Shown piece after piece: positions 9,048 through 38,658 of a stretch of DNA of 48,312 bases. Below the pieces are notes generated by a model, which searched no databases, had not been told where the DNA came from, and saw only the letters and a list, made by a program, of their open reading frames with translations. Position 1 is the first letter of the stretch. Every line of letters starts with the position of its first letter. The stretch comes from Deltaproteobacteria bacterium (lineage in GTDB: Bacteria; Desulfobacterota; Desulfobacteria; Desulfobacterales; JAUWMJ01). Both the position numbers and the translations under genes were made by a program. The stretch covers positions 1-48,312 of the forward strand of contig DAOWEJ010000024.1 of the NCBI GenBank assembly GCA_030638575.1, given 5' to 3'.

Positions 9048-10112
9048 TCAGTTAAAAAATATACGAGTTATATCATTATAAAACACAAATATCATAAGCA
9101 TGAGAAGGATGAACATTCCTGCCTGCTGGGCCACTTCACGGACTTTTAAACTTACGGGACGCCCTATTATGGCCTCTAAAAAGAAAAACAGCAAATGCCC
9201 GCCGTCCAGAACCGGTATGGGCAAAAAATTGATTATAGCAAGGGTTATGCTGATGATTGCAATAAAAAAGGATAAGCTGGCTATACCCCTTTTTGCATAA
9301 TGACCGGCCATCTGGGCAATCAGAATCGGTCCTCCTATAGTTTTTACAGACTCTGTACCCTTAATCAGCCTTACAATCCCTGATATTGTGCGCTTTGTCC
9401 ATTTATACGTCTCGATTATGCTCTCGGATAATGCCTGCAATGGATTTAATTTCTTTATAAATCCGTCCGTACCGCTTGCAATCCCTATTCTATAGCTCTT
9501 TATTTCAACGCCGAACATCTTTTCAACTTTCAGTTCCGGCGTAATACGAACCATAAAATCAGATCCTTCGCGACGCACAGTTACTTCAAGGGTCTTGCCG
9601 TTACTCGACGCAATTAGATGAGCCATGTCTTCCCATAACTCAACGGAAGTTCCGTCAATGGCAACGATAAGATCTCCTTCCATGAGTCCCGCTTCTTGTG
9701 CGGGCTTACCCTCTAAAACAGTACCTATGGAGGGCTTTAATACAAAAATACCATATATTTGAAACATTACAAAAAATATCACGGCAGCCAGAAGAAAATT
9801 AAAAAAGGGACCTGCCGCAACGATTAAGATTCGTTTAAATACATGCTTGTGTGTAAAGGAGATAGGTATATCCTTGGGATCAATTTCGGCATCCGGCTCT
9901 TCCCCCACCATTTTTACATACCCGCCAAGGGGAATGGCTGAAATACGATAATCCGTGATGCCGATCTTCTTGCCGAGAATTCTTGGGCCGAACCCGAGTG
10001 AGAACTTCTCAACTCCAACACCGAATAACCGGGCCACAAGAAAATGGCCCAATTCATGAAAAAATATAAGGATGCCCAAAACAACGATAAATGCAAATAT
10101 ACTTGTGCTCAT
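9048..10112 (-). CDS. rseP: RIP metalloprotease RseP (site-2 protease)
   Basis: 354 residues. The zinc site HELGH is at residues 19-23 inside the first membrane helix, followed by the family motif LGFGPRI and a PDZ domain in the middle (GKPAQEAGLMEGDLIVAIDGT). The second active-site motif NFLPIPVLDGGH is near residue 310, with membrane helices around it. It cuts within the inner membrane, classically releasing a sigma factor from its anti-sigma factor and removing leftover signal peptides. It is the last gene of the block that begins with rpsB; dxr is 86 nt upstream. Confidence 0.94.
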   Translation of the reverse strand: MSTSIFAFIVVLGILIFFHELGHFLVARLFGVGVEKFSLGFGPRILGKKIGITDYRISAIPLGGYVKMVGEEPDAEIDPKDIPISFTHKHVFKRILIVAAGPFFNFLLAAVIFFVMFQIYGIFVLKPSIGTVLEGKPAQEAGLMEGDLIVAIDGTSVELWEDMAHLIASSNGKTLEVTVRREGSDFMVRITPELKVEKMFGVEIKSYRIGIASGTDGFIKKLNPLQALSESIIETYKWTKRTISGIVRLIKGTESVKTIGGPILIAQMAGHYAKRGIASLSFFIAIISITLAIINFLPIPVLDGGHLLFFFLEAIIGRPVSLKVREVAQQAGMFILLMLMIFVFYNDITRIFFN

Positions 10113-10198
10113 GATAAAACAGTTCCTGTTTTAAAGCTGTTAGTCCCGCTGCCATCGGAATTAAACGATGATAGTTCTTTTTCCCTGTAAGCTATGAG

Positions 10199-25190: not shown

Positions 25191-26207
25191 ATGCCAAAAG
25201 AACTTACAAACTCAACGATAGAACGCCAGAATGTTTTGAACAACCCCTATGCAGTTACCGAAATTCAAAAAGCTGTAGATCTCAGATGCATCTTTTTTGA
25301 AGGCCGCCATTGGTTAAACAAGGAGCAGATCGCTTCTTTTTTTGAAGTCACGCCGCGTACCATCGATAATTATCTCAACAAATATGAAAGCGAATTGCGT
25401 CATAACGGTTACGAAGTGCTCAAAGGTATCCGATTGAAAAAGTTGAAGAAAGCTATAATTAAGCAGTTTGATGACGAAATTAATTTCATTACCAAAACAA
25501 CGACTCTCGGCATATTCGATTTCAGGGCGTTTCTTAATATAGCGATGTTGCTGACCGAAAGCGAACGGGCCCGCGTGTTACGGCAGACCATTCTGGATAT
25601 AGTTATCGATACCATAAATCAGCGTACCGGCGGCAGCACCAAATATATCAATCAGCGTGACGAAGATTTTATTATTGCCTACTTTCAGGAAGAGAATTAC
25701 CGCAAGGAATTTACCAATGCGTTGCGGGATTATGTGGATATGGGTAATTTTAAATACCCGATGTACACCAATAAAATTTATGTCAGCATCTTTCGTGAAA
25801 ATGCACAAGAATACCGCAAGATACTAAAGCTGCACGAGAAAGATAAAGTTCGCGATACCTTTTATTCCGAGGTTCTTGATCTGGTGGCTTCCTACGAATA
25901 CGGATTTGCCAAACTGCTGGAAGCTGCATATGAAAAACGTCAGATAAAACTAAACTCATGGGATGTAGATCTGCTCTTTAAGGAATTTGAGAAACAGCCG
26001 CACTGGAAACCCCTGGTTGAGAGAGCCAGAAACAAGATGGCAAGCCGTGACCTGGCGTTCAGGGATGCACTTCATTTGCAGCTAAAAGAATATATTATGC
26101 CTGTTCAAGCTGATGAATTTGAACGTTTTCTTGGAGAGAAAAGCAAGGAGTTGGCAGAACGCCTGGAAGAAGCCAAAGATGTTTTCAAACGGTTAAAGGA
26201 ACGTTAA
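25191..26207 (+). CDS. RhuM-like DNA-binding protein, likely antitoxin/regulator of the Fic pair
   Basis: 338 residues. The N-terminal part resembles a winged-helix DNA-binding segment (WLNKEQIASFFEVTPRTIDNYLNKYESELRHNGYEVLKG) as in RhuM virulence-type proteins. The middle continues with TTLGIFDFRAFLNIAMLLTESERARVLRQTILDIV and RDEDFIIAYFQEENYRKEFTNAL, and the C-terminal 60 residues are charged and helical. The stop is 2 nt before the start of a Fic/Doc gene, so the two are probably translated together. By analogy with Phd-Doc and related pairs it could neutralise and regulate the toxin; that role is inference. Confidence 0.7.
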   Translation: MPKELTNSTIERQNVLNNPYAVTEIQKAVDLRCIFFEGRHWLNKEQIASFFEVTPRTIDNYLNKYESELRHNGYEVLKGIRLKKLKKAIIKQFDDEINFITKTTTLGIFDFRAFLNIAMLLTESERARVLRQTILDIVIDTINQRTGGSTKYINQRDEDFIIAYFQEENYRKEFTNALRDYVDMGNFKYPMYTNKIYVSIFRENAQEYRKILKLHEKDKVRDTFYSEVLDLVASYEYGFAKLLEAAYEKRQIKLNSWDVDLLFKEFEKQPHWKPLVERARNKMASRDLAFRDALHLQLKEYIMPVQADEFERFLGEKSKELAERLEEAKDVFKRLKER

Positions 26208-26209
26208 TA

Positions 26210-26644
26210 ATGGGATTTGTCTACCCTACGCTTGAACAAGCCATGGAAATACATCAGAAAACCGTTGAGGTCAGCGGTGGCGGAGCAATGGGAAAATTGG
26301 ATATGGGAAGGCTCGAAAGTGTCCTTTGCCATATCCAAAACGATGACTACTATCCGGCTTTTGAAGACAAACTGACCCATCTCTTTTTCGGCGCCTGTAA
26401 ATTCCATTGTTTTGAGGACGGAAACAAACGGATCGCCATTTCATTAGGCGCCCAGTTCTTATTGCTGAACGGTTATGTTTTCGTTACCAAACGGTTTATC
26501 CATGAAATGGAAAATATCAGCTATCATGTCGCAACGGGAAAAATTGATAAAGACCTGCTAAAAGAGATTATAAGCGCTGTCATTGAAGATGACATGGAAC
26601 GTGAAGGTCTGAAACTGAAGATATTGATGGCAATTTCGAACTAA
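26210..26644 (+). CDS. Fic/Doc family toxin
   Basis: 144 residues, the size of Doc. The active-site loop reads HCFEDGNKRIA (His66 to Arg74), close to the Fic HPFxxGNxR and Doc HxFxxANKR motifs. The Gly at position 71 is Fic-like and the GNKR end is Doc-like. YPTLEQAMEIHQ at the start is typical of Doc. Fic proteins add AMP to target proteins and Doc phosphorylates EF-Tu; which one applies here cannot be told from sequence. The gene follows its presumed antitoxin by 2 nt and precedes the exonuclease-cas3 unit by 51 nt. Confidence 0.85.
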   Translation: MGFVYPTLEQAMEIHQKTVEVSGGGAMGKLDMGRLESVLCHIQNDDYYPAFEDKLTHLFFGACKFHCFEDGNKRIAISLGAQFLLLNGYVFVTKRFIHEMENISYHVATGKIDKDLLKEIISAVIEDDMEREGLKLKILMAISN

Positions 26645-26695: not shown

Positions 26696-27232
26696 ATGCT
26701 GTCGAATAACCATACAAAATCAACCGATCGGTATGTAGCGCTGGATGTGGAAACAACCGGTTTTTCGCCACAAAATGGTGACAGGGTAATAGAAATAGGC
26801 GCTGTTGCTATTGAGGGTCAGAGCATTGTCGCTGAATTCAGCATGCTCATTGATGCCGGCAAAAGGATTCCATGGCAAGTCCAAAAGGTGCATGGCATAA
26901 CCAATGAAATGCTATATGGCGAATCAAAGCCGGATGAAGTGTTGCCGGAGTTTTACAAGTTCATTGCCGGAAATATCCTGGTAGCTCACAATGCGAGCTT
27001 TGATATCGGATTTCTAAGACACGAATTTGCTTTATTAGGTATGAGCCTGAATAACAGGTCTTTATGCACACTAAAAATGAGCAGAAAGCTATATCCGAAT
27101 CTGCCCAATCATAAACTGGAAACAGTGAGCCGGTATTTGCTTGGAGAATCATGCGAACAGATGCAGATGCACAGAGCGCTTGATGACGCAAAACTTGCTG
27201 GCATGATATGGCTTGAAATGGGAAAGATATGA
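26696..27232 (+). CDS. Stand-alone DEDDh 3'-5' exonuclease (DnaQ-like), coupled to cas3
   Basis: 178 residues. Exo I is YVALDVETTGF (Asp17, Glu19), exo II is VAHNASFDIGFL (Asp103), and exo III is HRALDDAKLAG (His159, Asp164), so all five DEDDh residues are present. The rest is the compact epsilon-type fold. The stop overlaps the start of cas3 by 4 nt (ATGA), a strong sign of co-translation. Family knowledge: DnaQ-like exonucleases trim prespacers for Cas1-Cas2, and in some type I-E systems the domain is fused to Cas2. Here it is a separate protein at the other end of the operon and Cas2 has no fusion. A role in adaptation is inference. Confidence 0.88.
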   Translation: MLSNNHTKSTDRYVALDVETTGFSPQNGDRVIEIGAVAIEGQSIVAEFSMLIDAGKRIPWQVQKVHGITNEMLYGESKPDEVLPEFYKFIAGNILVAHNASFDIGFLRHEFALLGMSLNNRSLCTLKMSRKLYPNLPNHKLETVSRYLLGESCEQMQMHRALDDAKLAGMIWLEMGKI

Positions 27233-29949
27233 GTGTTTCATCCGACATTATTTATCGGTATTGGGGCAAGGCGCGGCCTGATGACAAAACCGGTCCGGCA
27301 TTCCATCTTTTGCCATACCATTGCCTGGATGTGGCGGCGGTGGGGTGGATTTTGCTAAACCCTCAAAAATCGCTTTGTCTTCGCATGGCAACACAGCTTG
27401 GGATTGAATCACGCTGGCTGCGTGACTTTTTTGTCTTTTGTTTGGCTCTTCACGATATGGGTAAATTTTCGAGGGCATTTCAGGGGTTGAAAACAGATCT
27501 ATCGCCTGATTTGGTTAAAGCCAATCCAAGGATGCAATACACTGAGCGGCACGATACCCTTGGCTTCTTGTTATGGCGAGAGAATCTATCTACTCAACTT
27601 GAGAAACTGCCTTCCGGTAACAGTGAATGGCTAAACAAAATTGAGCCTTGGATGGAAATTGTTACGGGTCACCACGGCATTCCGCCGAAAAAATCAGGTA
27701 GCCGAATTTCAAATTTTTTTGAACAGGAAGATGAAGAAGCGGCCTGTCATTTTGTATGGGACGTATACAGTATGTTCCTCTCTGAGTTTGATCATACCGC
27801 TCTGCTCGATAGCGACTTGAAACAACGATTGAAAACCGTCTCATGGCAACTGGCTGGGATTGCAGTGATGGCGGATTGGCTGGGATCAAACCAGGAGCAT
27901 TTCAAGTACTACAGCAAACCGGAGGAGTTGGTTATTTATTGGCATAAACACGCTTTACAATCAGCAAAAAAAGCGATTCAATCCATGCCCGCAAAGCCAA
28001 AGACGAGCCGGTTTCAAGGTCTAAACAACCTGTTTCCTTCGTTTATTCCGACACCATTACAAAAATACGCAATCAATGAACCGTTAAATGATAAACAACA
28101 ACTTTTCATTCTTGAAGATGTCACTGGTGCTGGTAAAACAGAAGCCGCTCTGATTCTGACACACCGTTTGTTAAGTGCAGGATTAGCGGATGGTTTGTAC
28201 GTGGCATTGCCAACTATGGCTACCGCCAATGCCATGTACAAGAGGGTGGGTGAAGTGTATCGCCGTTTTTACGAAAGCAGCAGCGATTTACCTTCGTTGA
28301 TATTGGCGCATGGAGCACGGGAACTATCTAATGCGTTTCGTAAATCAGTATGTCTCCCGGAAAATCAAGCAGAAGACCTGAACTACACAAATGGCTATGA
28401 TGAGCTGGAACAGGAGCTGAGCGCCACAGCTTATTGCCATACATGGCTGGCCGATAGTCGGAAAAAGGCTTTGTTGGCCGATGTTGGCGTTGGTACCCTT
28501 GATCAGGCATTGCTGGCTGTATTGCCTGCTCGTCACCAGTCCTTGCGGCTTCTTGGCCTTGGACGTAAAGTGTTGCTGGTCGATGAGGTTCATGCTTATG
28601 ACAGCTACATGCAGAAATTGCTTGATGCTTTGCTGGAAATGCATGCAAGGCAGGGAGGCAGTGTGATTCTGTTGTCGGCCACCTTGCCGCAAACCATGCG
28701 TGAAAATCTGGTCGAGGCTTTTCATCGCGGCCTTGGCGATGCCACCCCTGAAATCCGTAGTGATGCCTATCCGTTGGCCACCCATTCACCGGCAGCAGGT
28801 GAGTATGAAAAATATATTGACACCCGCAAAGAAGTTAAACGCACAGTAACGGTCAGGCAGTTGGATGCAGAAGATGCGGTAATTGAGCAAATTCAGCAGG
28901 CTGTGAGTAATGGGCAGTGTGTTTGCTGGATTCGTAATACGGTGAAAGCGGCGCGTAAAAGTCATCGAACTTTGGCGCAATGTGAATGGATGGACAAAGA
29001 TCATTTGCATCTGTTTCACAGTCGTTTTGCCATGATAGACAGACAACAAATTGAAGAAGAAACCTTGAAGCGATTTGGCGACAAGTCGAAGCATGTAGAT
29101 CGGAAAGGGCGGGTGATAATTTCTACACAGGTGGTTGAGCAATCACTGGACCTGGATTTTGATGTGTTGATCACCGACCTCGCACCGATTGACCTTATCA
29201 TTCAGCGGGCAGGCCGTCTGCGACGGCATATTCGTGATGTACAAGGCAACAGGATCAGGGATTTGAACGTAAAAGATCAGCGCGGCACTCCAATTCTTTA
29301 TCTTTTTGCACCTGATCCAAAGGAAGATGCTGATGAAAACTGGTTGAAAGCGCAGCAGAAAGGCACGCAGGCGGTTTATCCACATGTCGGTCAGCTCTGG
29401 CTGACGGCAAAGCTGTTGCTGGGGAATGGAAAAGGAAAGTTCACCATGCCGGACGATGCCAGAAGCCTGATTGAAGGCGTCTATTCGAATAGCGTTGAAG
29501 ATGTCATTCCAAAAGAACTAAAAAAGAATTCCTATGAGGCAATTGGCAAAGATCAATCTAAAAAAAGCATGGCAAACCTGAACGTGATCAAACTAAACAA
29601 GGGCTACACCAGATCCAGTGGCGATTGGGATGAAGAAACCCACATTCCTACACGATTGACCGAAGAAGAGACATTTTCTATTGCTCTTGCCCGACTCAAT
29701 CAGGGCCAACTGCAACCCTATGCCAAAACTGCGCACCATGAATGGGCCATGAGTGTTGTAAAAATACCGGAGTGGGAATGGAAAAAGGCAAAGCAGCAAA
29801 TTACTTCAACCATGCAAAAACTAATTGAAGATTTAAAAACCGAGGTCAAAGCCCTGCGCTGGCTTGAGGTTTTTCCTCTCACAGATGAAACAGCAAATTA
29901 CTACAATGCCAAAGACGGCTGGCAACCTGAAACAGGAGAAAGTCAATGA
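27229..29949 (+). CDS. cas3: CRISPR-associated helicase/nuclease Cas3, type I-E
   Basis: 906 residues. The HD nuclease domain is N-terminal (FHLLPYHCLDVA with His31; LALHDMGKFSRAFQ with His75-Asp76; TGHHGIPP). The superfamily 2 helicase follows, with Walker A EDVTGAGKTEAALILTHRL near residue 300, DEVH box LLVDEVHAYDSYM near 450, SATLPQTMRE, and the motif VI region TQVVEQSLDLDFDVLITDLAPIDLIIQRAGRLRRH near 640. It unwinds and degrades target DNA after recruitment by Cascade. The stop overlaps the cas8e start by 4 nt. Confidence 0.96.
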   Translation: MSVSSDIIYRYWGKARPDDKTGPAFHLLPYHCLDVAAVGWILLNPQKSLCLRMATQLGIESRWLRDFFVFCLALHDMGKFSRAFQGLKTDLSPDLVKANPRMQYTERHDTLGFLLWRENLSTQLEKLPSGNSEWLNKIEPWMEIVTGHHGIPPKKSGSRISNFFEQEDEEAACHFVWDVYSMFLSEFDHTALLDSDLKQRLKTVSWQLAGIAVMADWLGSNQEHFKYYSKPEELVIYWHKHALQSAKKAIQSMPAKPKTSRFQGLNNLFPSFIPTPLQKYAINEPLNDKQQLFILEDVTGAGKTEAALILTHRLLSAGLADGLYVALPTMATANAMYKRVGEVYRRFYESSSDLPSLILAHGARELSNAFRKSVCLPENQAEDLNYTNGYDELEQELSATAYCHTWLADSRKKALLADVGVGTLDQALLAVLPARHQSLRLLGLGRKVLLVDEVHAYDSYMQKLLDALLEMHARQGGSVILLSATLPQTMRENLVEAFHRGLGDATPEIRSDAYPLATHSPAAGEYEKYIDTRKEVKRTVTVRQLDAEDAVIEQIQQAVSNGQCVCWIRNTVKAARKSHRTLAQCEWMDKDHLHLFHSRFAMIDRQQIEEETLKRFGDKSKHVDRKGRVIISTQVVEQSLDLDFDVLITDLAPIDLIIQRAGRLRRHIRDVQGNRIRDLNVKDQRGTPILYLFAPDPKEDADENWLKAQQKGTQAVYPHVGQLWLTAKLLLGNGKGKFTMPDDARSLIEGVYSNSVEDVIPKELKKNSYEAIGKDQSKKSMANLNVIKLNKGYTRSSGDWDEETHIPTRLTEEETFSIALARLNQGQLQPYAKTAHHEWAMSVVKIPEWEWKKAKQQITSTMQKLIEDLKTEVKALRWLEVFPLTDETANYYNAKDGWQPETGESQ

Positions 29950-31631
29950 ATTTAATTACCGACCCATGGATTCCGGTTATTCGTAAGGATGGTACTTCCG
30001 ATACAATAATGCCCTGGCAGATAGCAGAGACAGAAAATCCAGTCATTGAAATCAATGCGCCTCGGCCTGATTTTCAGGGAGCATTATATCAGTTTCTTAT
30101 TGGACTGTTACAGACTTGTTTTGCTCCTGAAGATGAGGATGAGTGGGAAGACTATTGGAAAAAATTCCCAGAGCCAACTGAATTGATGAACGCTTTTGGA
30201 AAAGTGGAAGATGCTTTCGAGTTGGACAATTCAGATGGACCTGCGTTTATGCAGGAACACCCGGATACGGATAAACATTATGATATTTTTGAAAAGGCAG
30301 AGTGGTTGCCAGTTGAAGATTTGATTGGCGGAGCATTGAGCGACAATACTAGAAAAAACAACAAGGATCTATTTATCAAAACTAAAGAGAGCGAGCTTAT
30401 TTCTCCCTACTGGGCGGCCCTGGCTTTGTTTAATTTGCAAATTACCGGAGTCTTGGCTTGGGGAAAGCATAGGGTCGGCCTCAGAGGAAATGCTCCATTA
30501 ACGACATTGGTAATACCCGATTCTGATCAATGCATTTTATGGCAAAAGATATGGCTGAATGTGATCTATCAGGAGGATATTGATTTAATTCCCGGCGATT
30601 CAGCGAAAAAAGAGCTTTCGGATATTTTTCCTTGGATGGGAAAAACACGTACCAGCCCCAACAAGAAGCCAACTTCACCGTCTGATGCGAATCCCATCCA
30701 ACACTATTGGGCGATGCCAAGGCGCATCCGGTTGAAGGTTGAACCGGTCAAAGAAAAAAAATGTGACTTATCGGGAGAGAAGCTTGAGCATGGGGTAAGG
30801 TTTTATAAGCGTATCCATGATGGCGTTTATTACACCAACGGCTGGGTTCATCCTCTAACGCCTTATACTCGATCAGCAAAAAACAAATTTCCAAAGCCGA
30901 TTGAAGGGAAATACGCTGGTAAAGGATTCAGGCAGTGGGTATCACTTAATTATGACGAATATGCTGATGACGAAAACAAGAAATTACGCTGGGGACGTTC
31001 ATTAGCGGTGAAGCACTATTACGATGAAAAAAAACACAAAATTGCGGTTAACACTAAACTTTGGTGCTTTGGCTATGATGCCGTGAATGCCAATGTAAAA
31101 TGCTGGTACGAATCCATTATGCCGACATTTCAGGTACCAAATGATGATGTCGATGCTTTAAAAGATCATGTTTCCGAAGCCCTACAAATTGCGTATCAAT
31201 TAGTAGAGGCACTTCGGTTTTCAATTATTCGGGCATGGTTCAGACCTCAAACAGATAGCAACGGAAAGAAAAAGTGGAATCATGTGATAAGCGCTATCAA
31301 CAAAACTGGGCATTTAAGCACCTATAAGAACATTGAATATGATTATTGGGAGAGTCTTGAAGAGGAGTTTTCAGCCATGCTTGACAAATTGATTGTTTAC
31401 GGACAAACCCCTGGCAAGCCGTTACAGATTTATGTACAGTGGATAAAAGCTATTCAAAAACACTGCTTCAACTATTTTGATCGGAATGCTTTAGGTGAGG
31501 CTGTTGATGAAAGGGATTTGAGGCGGGTGGTGGAAGCAAAAAGTTATCTTCGTGAAGCTTTGTTCCCATATAAAAAGTCATTTTTAAAAGAAATTAATGA
31601 ATTCAGAAAACAGAGGGAGGTGGCAGCGTGA
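29946..31631 (+). CDS. cas8e: Cascade large subunit Cas8e (CasA/Cse1)
   Basis: 561 residues. The start MNLITDPWIPVIRKDGTSDTIMPWQI and the later block ALALFNLQITGVLAWGKHRVGLRGNAPLTTLV are typical of Cse1. Its C-terminal part is a four-helix bundle type (residues about 390-555). In Cascade it recognises the PAM and recruits Cas3. Length is a little above the usual 500. The start overlaps cas3 by 4 nt and its end overlaps the cse2 GTG by 4 nt. Confidence 0.94.
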   Translation: MNLITDPWIPVIRKDGTSDTIMPWQIAETENPVIEINAPRPDFQGALYQFLIGLLQTCFAPEDEDEWEDYWKKFPEPTELMNAFGKVEDAFELDNSDGPAFMQEHPDTDKHYDIFEKAEWLPVEDLIGGALSDNTRKNNKDLFIKTKESELISPYWAALALFNLQITGVLAWGKHRVGLRGNAPLTTLVIPDSDQCILWQKIWLNVIYQEDIDLIPGDSAKKELSDIFPWMGKTRTSPNKKPTSPSDANPIQHYWAMPRRIRLKVEPVKEKKCDLSGEKLEHGVRFYKRIHDGVYYTNGWVHPLTPYTRSAKNKFPKPIEGKYAGKGFRQWVSLNYDEYADDENKKLRWGRSLAVKHYYDEKKHKIAVNTKLWCFGYDAVNANVKCWYESIMPTFQVPNDDVDALKDHVSEALQIAYQLVEALRFSIIRAWFRPQTDSNGKKKWNHVISAINKTGHLSTYKNIEYDYWESLEEEFSAMLDKLIVYGQTPGKPLQIYVQWIKAIQKHCFNYFDRNALGEAVDERDLRRVVEAKSYLREALFPYKKSFLKEINEFRKQREVAA

Positions 31632-32203
31632 ATTACAATTTTCTTAGTTTTGAAGAGCAAAAAAGTTTGCAACACTGGCATCGCCGGCTGGATGACAATC
31701 GCGGAGACCGTGCCCGATTGCGGCGGGCTGAAAGGCCGGAAGATATTTTATTGACCGATGCCTTCTTTAACTTTCTACAACGGATGCCGGAAGGCTGGCG
31801 GGAGAGAATGCCTATGCTTACCAGCGCGGCAGTGGCGGGATTATTGTCGCATGTTAAAGAAAACAGGCAAGCCTTAAGCCGAGGCTATCAACCCAAAGAT
31901 AAGAACAAACAAAGAAATATAGCCTCTTTTGCTGAACAACTGGCAACGCCGGCCAAAAGTAAAAAGCCCCCAATGAGTGAGTTGCGTTTTCAGCAATTGC
32001 AGAAGAGCTTGACCACTGATGACTTTTACCGTCGCATTTTAAGAGCGATTCGCTTACTTGATGGCAAGGTTAATATATCCTCTCTGGCTAATGACATAAT
32101 TCACTGGAATCAGGAGTTTGATAATCAAATTGACCGTGAGCCGGCCAAACGACTGGCCGTGCGCTGGGCAACCGACTATTTCACCGCATTACAAAAAAAA
32201 TAA
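31628..32203 (+). CDS. cse2: Cascade small subunit Cse2 (CasB, Cas11e)
   Basis: 191 residues, GTG start overlapping the cas8e stop. Characteristic parts are HWHRRLDDNRGDRARLRRAERPEDILLTDAFFNFL near the N-terminus and MSELRFQQLQKSLTTDDFYRRILRAIRLLDGKVNISSLANDIIHWNQ in the middle. Cse2 dimers line the belly of Cascade and hold the displaced DNA strand. Confidence 0.94.
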   Translation: MNYNFLSFEEQKSLQHWHRRLDDNRGDRARLRRAERPEDILLTDAFFNFLQRMPEGWRERMPMLTSAAVAGLLSHVKENRQALSRGYQPKDKNKQRNIASFAEQLATPAKSKKPPMSELRFQQLQKSLTTDDFYRRILRAIRLLDGKVNISSLANDIIHWNQEFDNQIDREPAKRLAVRWATDYFTALQKK

Positions 32204-32220
32204 AACAAAGGAGAATGATT

Positions 32221-33846
32221 ATGAGCCGTTTTATTCAATTACATCTGTTGACAGCCTATCCACCAGCCAACTTAAACCGCGATGACATGGGTAGCCCAAA
32301 AACCGCGAAGATGGGTGGCTATGATCGACTGCGCGTTTCTTCGCAATGCCTGAAACGGACATGGCGGACTTCTGAGATTTTTGAAACAGCCATTTCCAAA
32401 GGTATTAGAACAAAAATGATCGGTGTTGATGCTTTCAAAAAGTTATCCGAATTTTCCGTACTGAGCAAATCAGAACGAGAAGAAATTGCAAAAAATATTG
32501 CCCGTGTTTTTGGAAAGTTAAAGAGCAATTCCATGAAGTTGGAAACCATGGCTTTCATTTCTGAAACGGAACAAGCAAAGATCGACAATATTATCAGTGG
32601 ATTCAGCAAAGGTGTTGGCAGGGCCACAGAAGAATCTAATGCATTAGGCGTTAAGCTGTTCAGAGTACTGTCATCTGATATTCAGGCTTCGGTAAAAAGC
32701 CTTATTGATATCATAAATGGAGGACATGAAAGTGCAAAGCTGACTACCGACTGGAACAAAGAACTGAAAAAACAGAGTAAAAAATTCAAATCAACCGAAG
32801 ACAAAAGCACCTATGACTATCTTACGAAAATGATTGATAACAAATCAGAGTGGCTGGATAGCGTTGCCGGGGATACAGAGGTGCGTGAAGATCAACTTGA
32901 GCTGTTTTTTGCTGATGAAGCTGCCAAGTTAACGAAAGCGATACTAAAAAAAATATCGATTGGGGCTTTGTTATCCGGAAAGAATGCCAAAGAAATCGAT
33001 TATGGTGAAGTGAAGCATAAAGAACATATTCTTTTATGTAAGGGATGGGAAGAGCAGATCGATACTTGGGTTGAAGATGTAAAAAAGTCTGAAGATGATG
33101 ATTTTATGTCAGAAGTTAATATTGAAAATTTGAAACTGGCGGTGTCACATGTTGCCATTGCAAAATCATCAATATTAACCAATGAGCATACCAATGCAGA
33201 TATCGCTTTGTTTGGCAGAATGCTGGCATCCAGTCCTGCTTTTAATGTAGAAGCCGCCTGTCAGGTAGCACATGCGATCAGTGTACATCCTGTGGTTATT
33301 GAAGACGATTACTTCACTGCCGTTGATGATCTGAACAATGGAATGGAAGATATGGGGGCAGCACACATTGGTGAAACCCGTTTTGCTGCTGGTCTATTTT
33401 ACTCCTATATCTGCATCAACAGGGAATTACTGATCCAGAATTTGGATGGAAATGAAGAGCTGGCCAACAAAGCCATTCGCGCTTTGACCGAAGCGGCGGC
33501 CAAGGTGGCCCCTGAAGGTAAGCAAAACAGCTTTGCCTCACGCGCTTATGCCTCCTATGTGTTAGCCGAGAAGGGCGATCAGCAGCCGCGTTCGTTGTCG
33601 GTGGCGTATCTGAAGCCGATCAATCACCGTGAAAATAATGATTTTATTGGAGATGCAATTGATGCTTTGGTCAAACAAAAAGATAGTTTTGACAGAGTGT
33701 ATGGCAAATGTGCTGATAACCAATATGAATTGAATGTTCTTGCTTATATGAATGAAAAAAAAGACAAGGAAGATGATAAAAGTTCGAGCAAACAGGAAAC
33801 TCCTTTAGAAAAATTGCTAAACTTTGTTGGACCAATAGGAGGCTGA
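32221..33846 (+). CDS. cas7e: Cascade backbone subunit Cas7e (CasC/Cse4), unusually long
   Basis: 541 residues from the second ATG (32221), which is 7 nt after AAAGGAG and gives the usual start MSRFIQLHLL. The first 50 residues (LNRDDMGSPKTAKMGGYDRLRVSSQCLKRTWR) and residues 326 onwards (ADIALFGRMLASSPAFNVEAACQVAHAISVH ... FTAVDDL ... GAAHIGETRFAAGLFYSY) are standard Cse4. The helical part between SSQCLKR and ADIALFGRM is about 285 residues, against roughly 120 as I recall for E. coli CasC, so about 170 residues are extra. The reading frame is intact. Cas7e forms the six-subunit backbone on the crRNA. Confidence 0.93.
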   Translation: MSRFIQLHLLTAYPPANLNRDDMGSPKTAKMGGYDRLRVSSQCLKRTWRTSEIFETAISKGIRTKMIGVDAFKKLSEFSVLSKSEREEIAKNIARVFGKLKSNSMKLETMAFISETEQAKIDNIISGFSKGVGRATEESNALGVKLFRVLSSDIQASVKSLIDIINGGHESAKLTTDWNKELKKQSKKFKSTEDKSTYDYLTKMIDNKSEWLDSVAGDTEVREDQLELFFADEAAKLTKAILKKISIGALLSGKNAKEIDYGEVKHKEHILLCKGWEEQIDTWVEDVKKSEDDDFMSEVNIENLKLAVSHVAIAKSSILTNEHTNADIALFGRMLASSPAFNVEAACQVAHAISVHPVVIEDDYFTAVDDLNNGMEDMGAAHIGETRFAAGLFYSYICINRELLIQNLDGNEELANKAIRALTEAAAKVAPEGKQNSFASRAYASYVLAEKGDQQPRSLSVAYLKPINHRENNDFIGDAIDALVKQKDSFDRVYGKCADNQYELNVLAYMNEKKDKEDDKSSSKQETPLEKLLNFVGPIGG

Positions 33847-33847
33847 T

Positions 33848-34627
33848 ATGGACTATCTACTGTTCCATCTCTATGGCCCGATGGCCAGTTGGGGCGAAAT
33901 TGCAGTGGGCGAAACCCGTCACACAGCGAGTTATCCAAGCAAGTCGGCCATTATAGGTCTGATGGCGGCAGCGTTGGGCATAAAGCGTAACGATACCGAA
34001 AAACAGCAACAGATGCAACAAGGCTATGTGTTTGCTGTGGAGGTCTATTCTCAAGGAACGCTTCTGCGGGATTATCATACGGCACAGGTGCCTGACTCGG
34101 TTGGCAAGTTCACTTACCGCACACGCAGGGATGAACTGGTGCTTGGAAAGGTTCGTCTGGGAACTATTCTTTCCAGCAGGGAATATCGTTCGGATGCGAT
34201 GGCTCTGGTGGCTATTAAAGCATTGCCAAACGCCCCTTATGATTTACAAACCATTAAAAATCATCTTGAGAAACCGAGGTTTCATCTTTATCTAGGTCGA
34301 AAATCATGTCCCTTGGCTGCACCGTTGAATCCTCAGATCAGCGAGGATAAAAATAATTATTACGAGGCATTCAAGGTTTATAAGCATAAGCCTATGATGC
34401 CGACAAATAAATTATGTGAAGGCACTATATCTGTCCGCGATGCCTATTGGTTTCGCCAGGCTGATGATAAGCGCTATTATTGGGAAGGTGAAGCGTCCGA
34501 TTTTTCCGATACGCTCGATATGAGCCGGATGCAAACCCGAATTAGACACGATCAGCCTTTGTCTCGGAAACGCTGGCAGTTTTCACCACGCCAGGAACAC
34601 TACCTTTACTGTCAGGGAGGTAAATAA
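33848..34627 (+). CDS. cas5e: Cascade subunit Cas5e (CasD)
   Basis: 259 residues, GGAGG before the ATG, 1 nt after cas7e. The N-terminal RAMP segment LLFHLYGPMASWGEIAVGETRHTASYPSKSAIIGLMAAALGIKR is diagnostic, and KPMMPTNKLCEGTISVRDAYW follows in the C-terminal half. Cas5e binds the 5' handle of the crRNA. Confidence 0.95.
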   Translation: MDYLLFHLYGPMASWGEIAVGETRHTASYPSKSAIIGLMAAALGIKRNDTEKQQQMQQGYVFAVEVYSQGTLLRDYHTAQVPDSVGKFTYRTRRDELVLGKVRLGTILSSREYRSDAMALVAIKALPNAPYDLQTIKNHLEKPRFHLYLGRKSCPLAAPLNPQISEDKNNYYEAFKVYKHKPMMPTNKLCEGTISVRDAYWFRQADDKRYYWEGEASDFSDTLDMSRMQTRIRHDQPLSRKRWQFSPRQEHYLYCQGGK

Positions 34628-35493
34628 TGTATTTTTCCCGTATCCGAATAAAACCGGAAATCTTCAAAAGTACCCAACTGGCACAGGTTCTTTCCGATAA
34701 TTCCTACAATATGCATCGGCTGCTATGGGATCTTTTTTCAGATGAAAAACAGAGGAATTTTCTCTACCGGAAAGAAATTGCCAGCGAACAACTCGGAATA
34801 CAGGCTGGTGTTCGCGGAGAACCTATTTATTATCTTGTTTCTTCAACAAGTCCTTCTTCAGAAAACCCCTTTTTCCAGGTAGAGGCGAGAGAGTATCAAC
34901 CAAAGCTGGAGAAAGGAGAGATGCTTAGGTTTGAGATAAGAGCCAATCCGGTGATTACCAGAAATGGCAAAAAGCATGATGTTGTCATGGATGCGCAAAG
35001 AACATTTTTGACATCACTATGTGAAGAACTCAATCTACAATTTCGTTTGCCCTCTGCTCCAAAGAAACATGATTTTAAGAAAGCACTTTTAACTCACGGA
35101 GGACACGCATTGGATGAGCGGCTGACGACACTGCTGAAAAACGATTTCAGTTACTCTGAACGCCTGCGCCAATCAATACAGTTGCATAGCAAGATAGAGT
35201 GGTCAATCAAAGCTGTTGTTGATGATGCGCTTGAAAAATGGATGATAAGGCAGGGCCAAAGGAATGGTTTCTTGCTTGACAAAGATGATAACAACCAATG
35301 CAAACTTCAGAATAGCGCTTACCGCTGGCATTCAATAAAAGCCGAAAAAGAAAAAAAGTCGGGCTTCAGTTCTGTAGATTTTCTTGGCAATTTGGAGATT
35401 ATAGATGTTGAGAAATTTACAAAGGCACTGTTTGGGGGGATTGGGCGAGCCAAAGCCTTTGGTTGCGGCTTATTGCTCATTCGGCGGATCTGA
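34627..35493 (+). CDS. cas6e: CRISPR endoribonuclease Cas6e (CasE)
   Basis: 288 residues; the ATG shares one base with the cas5e stop. The start MYFSRIRIKPEIFKSTQLAQVLSDNSYNMHRLLWDLF includes the catalytic His of Cas6e, and the C-terminal glycine-rich loop reads FGGIGRAKAFGCGLLLI. It cuts the pre-crRNA at the base of the repeat hairpin (CCCCAC/GTGGGG here). It is longer than the E. coli protein (about 200), mostly between residues 105 and 250. No frame damage. Confidence 0.93.
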   Translation: MYFSRIRIKPEIFKSTQLAQVLSDNSYNMHRLLWDLFSDEKQRNFLYRKEIASEQLGIQAGVRGEPIYYLVSSTSPSSENPFFQVEAREYQPKLEKGEMLRFEIRANPVITRNGKKHDVVMDAQRTFLTSLCEELNLQFRLPSAPKKHDFKKALLTHGGHALDERLTTLLKNDFSYSERLRQSIQLHSKIEWSIKAVVDDALEKWMIRQGQRNGFLLDKDDNNQCKLQNSAYRWHSIKAEKEKKSGFSSVDFLGNLEIIDVEKFTKALFGGIGRAKAFGCGLLLIRRI

Positions 35494-35809: not shown

Positions 35810-37025
<1,216 letters not shown>

Positions 37026-37104: not shown

Positions 37105-38658
37105 ATGTTCCCCACATGCGTGGGGATGAACCGGTTTAATCGGTGTCGAAGAATACAAACGAGAGATGTTCCCCACATGCGTGGGGATGAACCGTAAATC
37201 ATAAACATCTGCGATTATGTCTTTAAATGTTCCCCACATGCGTGGGGATGAACCGTCCGCTTCCTCCTCCCGTCCCCCCGTTGACCGATGTTCCCCACAT
37301 GCGTGGGGATGAACCGTTATTATAAACCGTCTTACCCTGGAGCGTCACATGTTCCCCACATGCGTGGGGATGAACCGGTTTTCGAAACCCAGTGGTGCAT
37401 CTCGTTTATATGTTCCCCACATGCGTGGGGATGAACCGTCTTACACTTTCGGTGCGACAGATGAAGGCTAATGTTCCCCACATGCGTGGGGATGAACCGC
37501 CTTTTCTTGGTGCTCTGCCAGTGCCGAAAACATGTTCCCCACATGCGTGGGGATGAACCGTATAGACATCGAAAGACAGGGGGTTGATATGAATGTTCCC
37601 CACATGCGTGGGGATGAACCGAAGTATAGGGATTTGTTTTGTTGGTAATTATGATGTTCCCCACATGCGTGGGGATGAACCGATGAAGTTTCAGATGAGA
37701 CTGAAAGATCAAGAATGTTCCCCACATGCGTGGGGATGAACCGCGGGGTGATTGATTACGGTCGCCACTTGAGAGATGTTCCCCACATGCGTGGGGATGA
37801 ACCGATTTCATTTTAGATCAATTCATTTTGTAGGGGATGTTCCCCACATGCGTGGGGATGAACCGACACAAGCGCAATTTAGTTAAATATTACAGAGATG
37901 TTCCCCACATGCGTGGGGATGAACCGGGTGATAAACATCAGGTATAGGCTGCAATATCATGTTCCCCACATGCGTGGGGATGAACCGGATATAGAAATGA
38001 AATCATTACCAGACGACTTATGTTCCCCACATGCGTGGGGATGAACCGAGCTTTCAATATTATCGGATATCACCTCGTCGATGTTCCCCACATGCGTGGG
38101 GATGAACCGCCCAATATCCGTCTTTACGCTCGATCCATTCGATGTTCCCCACATGCGTGGGGATGAACCGTTTGAATTATCAAGCAAATACGCCTTGCAT
38201 AAATGTTCCCCACATGCGTGGGGATGAACCGCTCCTATCGCCAACATTGACTTGACAAATATAATGTTCCCCACATGCGTGGGGATGAACCGAGGTGTGT
38301 CGGCGGTCCTGATTAATGATTTAAATGTTCCCCACATGCGTGGGGATGAACCGAACTATACTATAAGTTAATAACCGAAGCCAAAATGTTCCCCACATGC
38401 GTGGGGATGAACCGGGTGATTGGGCGGTAGAGTTTCTTGAGCGGGTATGTTCCCCACATGCGTGGGGATGAACCGAAATAATCCCCCCAACGCTTTCGAG
38501 CTTGGCTATGTTCCCCACATGCGTGGGGATGAACCGTGCCGGTCGAAGATAATATTCCGGAAAAACCAATGTTCCCCACATGCGTGGGGATGAACCGGTC
38601 GAACTGTGACTGAGCGAGGGTTTTGGTGAATGTTCCCCCCATGCGGGGCGTGGATTGA
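37105..38658 (+). CRISPR. Type I-E CRISPR array, 26 repeats and 25 spacers
   Basis: Repeats of 29 nt start at 37105 and recur every 61 nt to 38630. Each begins ATGTTCCCC, has the hairpin CCCCAC-ATGC-GTGGGG and ends GATGAACCG. All 25 spacers are 32 nt and all differ. Repeats 1 to 25 look identical by eye. The last one (38630) is degenerate at the 3' end, as expected for the leader-distal end, but in an unusual way described under findings. Open frames on the minus strand here (rich in SSPRMWGT and VHPHACGEH) are artefacts of the repeats. I see no spacer matching elsewhere in the window, by eye only. Confidence 0.98.

Follow-up and report, generated by a model that had tools for sequence, protein, structure and literature searches.

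A type I-E CRISPR-Cas operon from a deltaproteobacterium of the order Desulfobacterales encodes a Cas7e protein much longer than usual, which raises the question of what the additional sequence is, how it was acquired and what it might do in the Cascade complex. The window analyzed here, a stretch of 48,312 nucleotides (contig DAOWEJ010000024.1), carries the complete operon on its forward strand, in the order cas3-cas8e-cse2-cas7e-cas5e-cas6e-cas1e-cas2e, with an adjoining array. The cas7e gene is the fourth, preceded by cas3 (27229..29949; 906 aa), cas8e/cse1 (29946..31631; 561 aa) and cse2/cas11 (31628..32203; 191 aa), and followed by cas5e (33848..34627; 259 aa), cas6e (34627..35493; 288 aa), cas1e (35810..36733) and cas2e (36714..37025). 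In the CRISPR array (37105..38648; no strand assigned), ATGTTCCCCACATGCGTGGGGATGAACCG recurs every 61 nt in 25 evenly spaced copies, and a further, degenerate repeat closes the array. The system looks functional, since all frames of the operon are open.

Additional genes accompany these loci. Two operons, that of the window (26696-27232) and that of the related locus L032 (599-1126), have a gene for a stand-alone RNase_T-family exonuclease directly upstream of cas3; in other systems, such enzymes are known to trim newly acquired spacers. Also upstream of the cas operon of the window (25191-26644) are genes for a protein of 338 aa that matches nothing in Pfam and then for a Fic/DOC-family protein, possibly a toxin-antitoxin-like pair. 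In the related operon of Desulfobacteraceae SURF_4 (locus L031), a BRO-N domain gene (9273-10118) is located between cas6e and cas1.

The cas7e gene (also cse4 or casC; 32215..33846, forward strand) may start at either of two in-frame ATG codons. Translation of 32221-33846 yields 541 aa without internal stops, in agreement with the intact frame reported in a preliminary description of this DNA, and the other ATG, two codons upstream at 32215, would yield a product of 543 aa. The protein matches TIGR01869 with 302.8 bits (cut-off 178.05), PF09344 with 324.6 bits (1.3e-96; cut-off 26) and the PADLOC Cas7e model with 311 bits; as judged from these matches, which exceed the curated family cut-offs, it is a true Cas7e. 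The N-terminal part of the core (32221..32595; residues 1-125) contains the RRM palm, with LNRDD and R38-SSQ-KR, and the first fingers helices, and the C-terminal part (33175..33843; residues 319-541) contains DIALFGRM, the thumb region and the remaining palm. Palm residues with crRNA-contact roles in E. coli CasC (K27, S40, Q42, K45, and M166; PMC5965380) are kept in the alignment, the first four at the same numbers and M166 as M334 of the window protein. The usual Cas7e has ~340-440 aa and a fingers segment of 30-93 aa, and the window protein, with 541 and 210 aa, falls outside both ranges. Because length is a usual trait of the family and not its definition, the protein is a variant that is still a Cas7e.

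The added sequence is an insert in the fingers domain (32596..33174). The profile of ordinary Cas7e breaks off at about residue 125 of the window protein and picks up again at ~313-320, which places the insert at residues ~126-318. The preliminary description had located the extra part at residues 80-320; an insert does lie in this region but is narrower, as the alignment with ordinary Cas7e extends over residues 80-125. Its count of ~285 residues instead of ~120 between SSQCLKR and ADIALFGRM is reproduced by anchors at 40 and 326 in the window protein and at ~40 and 158 in E. coli CasC. With the conserved E117 and D327 (the latter in DIALFGRM) as its limits, the fingers segment has 210 residues, against a median of 44 and a range of 30-93 in 63 other Cas7e proteins; this set comprised proteins of the same order and phylum, proteins from viral contigs, and those of E. 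coli and PDB entry 9uer. The order and phylum members of this comparison are without the insert, and the length is untypical of related genera. The same segment has 41 residues in E. coli and 34 in G071, the sister and nearest insert-free relative, a net difference of 176 aa between the window protein and its sister, close to the ~170 extra residues first estimated for this helical (fingers) domain.

The insert is highly charged, as had been noted (34% K/R/D/E; net charge -6), with one Cys in 190 residues, and a charge-hydropathy test predicts a folded chain. The helical character claimed along with the charge comes from two low-confidence AlphaFold2 models, one of the whole Cas7e (7 rows; pLDDT 43) and one of the isolated insert (3 rows; pLDDT 41), which contain only helices, in similar places, at a confidence unusable as evidence of a fold. 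Across the three full-length inserts described below, 55 of 62 hydrophobic positions keep this character, and four Trp occur in each. A Lys-rich segment (32746..32805; residues ~176-195, DWxKxLKxxxKxxKxxEDK), basic in all three, is a candidate nucleic-acid contact. Comparison of the insert with Pfam, PHROGs, PADLOC and PDB gave no significant family match; no intein/Hint family occurred among its matches, nor any nuclease family among those from Pfam and PADLOC. Internal duplication of the Cas7e helices was considered, as residues 230-250 bear a weak resemblance to a canonical fingers helix and a second HMMER match begins there; it was rejected when the insert, compared as a profile with the helical part of Cas7e or the whole protein, gave E 0.13-0.17 over 11-15 columns.

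Comparison of the window gene with those of L031 and G213 gave pN/pS ratios of 0.26-0.32 for the insert and 0.14-0.22 for the core, with synonymous change saturated; the pN of the insert is ~2 times that of the core. By these ratios the insert is under purifying selection, looser than that on the core. A pure expansion of loops, which the preliminary description had named as a finding that would lessen its interest, is unlikely because of this selection and of the kept hydrophobic positions.

The same insert occurs in other species. A scan with exact peptide patterns, which detects close relatives only, of one genome for each of 84,980 species identified two relatives with the insert. One is L031 (the same locus as G306), from Desulfobacteraceae SURF_4, with a full insert 67% identical to that of the window; in the other, L032 (same locus as G617), cas7e stops at the contig end after residue 162 and the first part of the insert is present. 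The missing remainder of this gene was sought elsewhere in the G617 genome and was not found. When 389 genomes of the order were searched with profiles, one more was recovered, G213 (L036), whose full-length insert has 56-57% identity, and the three full-length copies keep the size of the fingers segment (210, 210, and 214 residues). The G213 operon is frameshifted in cas3, cse2, cas7e and cas6e, with cas8e and cas5e open; the cas7e frameshift, a net loss of bases within diverged sequence, falls after residue 425 in window numbering, and the locus looks to be decaying. A class-level search, of largely the same genomes as the order search, returned the same three matches. No further copies were found in 395 genomes of the phylum, in the order of G617, in the families of G306 and G213, or in phages, viral contigs and plasmids; none of the 223 Cas7e-bearing plasmid records covered 80% of the window Cas7e query. 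Within the genus of the window organism, the insert is absent from two other genomes examined. The insert could be commoner than the genomes searched suggest.

A maximum-likelihood tree built from the core, with the insert left out, places the four insert-bearing Cas7e proteins in one clade (support 100/100) whose sister is the insert-free G071, so a single gain suffices to explain the distribution. The hosts are spread over different families, with G617 and the window organism related no more closely than by phylum, which makes horizontal movement of the operon or gene likely. In G617, the start of Cas7e is nearest to the insert clade (72-74%) and the other operon genes are nearest to G058 (cas8e 59%, cse2 59%), a mosaic produced either by a gene swap or by a chimeric contig end. 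The Cas8e proteins of the window, L031 and G213 are divergent, with at most 42% identity to the nearest insert-free Cas8e (only ~40% for the window branch against the nearest insert-free operons), against ~68% for cas3 and 65-70% for cse2 in comparison with G071. This pattern suggests replacement or fast evolution of Cas8e, and hints at co-adaptation near the PAM end, which G617 may contradict. Cas6e is also longer by ~65 residues (288-295 aa, against 222-226 aa in other relatives), with an extra middle segment, in the window, L031 (8394-9260), L044 and L050. As a partner change of the Cas7e insert this lengthening was rejected, since the insert-free G071 and G058 share it, and it is for the same reason older than the insert.

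The position of the insert was examined with the E. coli CasC sequence, verified as identical to PDB 4qyz across 363 residues. The insert falls between E. coli residues ~129 and 148, inside the fingers (59-180); the alignment within the insert itself is arbitrary and offers no lysine-for-lysine match. According to a review of E. coli Cascade structures (PMC5965380), K137, K138, and K141 of the Cas7.5 fingers are potential PAM-proximal contacts to the target duplex, and Cse1 and Cse2 attach via Cas7 D22 and W199. The insert replaces the segment that holds the three lysines, and D22 and W199 lie outside it, kept as D22 and Y364 in the window protein. Since the Cse2-contact residues are outside the insert, its position favors DNA contact over the altered Cse2 packing that had also been suggested. 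If the usual stoichiometry of six Cas7e copies, assumed here from E. coli Cascade, holds for this system, the insert would add ~1000 residues to each complex.

A tentative best explanation is that the insert forms an extra helical domain on the fingers and changes how the Cascade backbone contacts DNA, a reading that is possible and stops well short of probable. The ancestor of the small clade would have gained the fingers insert of ~176 residues once, within an apparently working type I-E operon. The insert would most likely be a folded, all-helical accessory domain that hangs off the fingers of every Cas7e copy, in place of the short duplex-facing K137/K138/K141 segment. From there it may add or remodel contacts between backbone and target DNA, either where the duplex enters near the PAM or, along the R-loop, with the displaced strand, and the conserved Lys-rich segment may provide them. 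Several observations count against DNA contact: the net charge of -6 does not suggest strong DNA binding overall, the faster pN of the insert would fit a surface element of any function, and both fold models are of low pLDDT. A lysine cluster like that of E. coli is missing at this site from the near insert-free relatives as well, so the idea that the insert took over the function of the cluster is unsupported. A bolder version, in which an undescribed folded domain without known relatives sits in every backbone subunit and lends the complex a second surface that contacts DNA along the R-loop, with the divergent Cas8e co-adapted to it, is doubtful.

The insert might instead act as a structural brace, with neighboring copies packing together or on Cas8e/Cse2 and stiffening the backbone without touching DNA. 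In E. coli Cascade the fingers of one Cas7e touch the thumb tip of the next (PMC5965380), the conserved hydrophobic pattern and the four Trp could form interfaces, and the unusual Cas8e branch in three insert-bearing operons could reflect co-adaptation; against this, the known Cse2-contact residues fall outside the insert, and in G617 an ordinary, G058-like Cas8e and Cse2 accompany the start of the insert, although at a contig end that is possibly chimeric. On balance a brace is rather unlikely. Near-neutral growth of the segment, tolerated and not used, would draw on its variable length in other Cas7e (30-93 residues), which indicates that the site tolerates insertions, but synonymous divergence is saturated and yet the ~176 residues have kept their length, under purifying selection and with their hydrophobic positions conserved; this origin is unlikely.

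It had also been proposed that the insert confers resistance to anti-CRISPR proteins, as a shield or decoy against these or other Cas7 backbone-binding factors of phages. An insert that evolves faster than the core, has a narrow distribution and lies on the surface of a repeated subunit would fit such a role, but the pN/pS of the whole insert in three sequences is well below 1, with no sign of diversifying selection, which leaves the proposal quite improbable. To our knowledge, no anti-CRISPR proteins are known for these hosts. Last, the G213 operon copy, with its four frameshifted genes, might point to an artefact or parasitic element (an intein, a frame-fusion error, an assembly chimera or a decaying pseudogene). 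Intein, frameshift and chimera were rejected for the window gene: its frame is intact, the same insert occupies the same site in independent genomes, no significant Pfam or PADLOC match was obtained for the insert, no intein family was matched, intein-type splice residues were not seen by eye and the insert has one Cys in 190 residues. Such an origin is extremely improbable.

E. coli CasC (PDB 4qyz/4tvx/4u7u) shares with the window Cas7e the palm, the thumb region, the crRNA-contact residues and the operon context, and differs from it by the ~170 extra fingers residues. The closest solved relative by phmmer is the Cse4 of PDB 9uer, which is similar in both core parts (E 1e-91) and lies on the same branch of the Cas7e tree; unlike the window protein, it has 351 aa, a fingers segment of 34 residues and no insert. 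The G071 Cas7e (L002) is 80% identical to that of the window over the matched C-terminal part and its operon is alike (cas3 68%, cse2 65%), but the protein has 369 aa without the insert, and its Cas8e differs (42%). The I-E2/Cas5-HNH and I-F Cas8-HNH variants of Cascade (PMC12669027) likewise bear an added domain on a known subunit, whereas the added part in the window is in Cas7e, matches no nuclease and coexists with Cas3. The window operon does not belong to I-E2, in which HNH is fused to Cas5 and Cas3 is typically absent, as its Cas5e is plain (259 aa) and Cas3 is present. Cas7-11 of types III-E and III-I is also a Cas7 protein with non-canonical added sequence, although it comprises several Cas7 domains fused with a Cas11 domain, in contrast to the one Cas7 and one insert of the window protein. 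No published account of such a Cas7e insert was found in the open-access literature, and the passages of the 2025 CRISPR classification that were consulted do not mention a variant of this kind.

Class 1 effector complexes have Cas7 as their repeated scaffold, and an insert in it would be multiplied along the whole guide. Should the insert contact DNA or lock the filament, it would represent a natural route to tune the affinity of Cascade, its target search or the locking of the R-loop, and would mark a permissive site in Cas7e for engineered insertions. If it is neutral, it still reveals how large an insertion the fingers of Cas7e tolerate.
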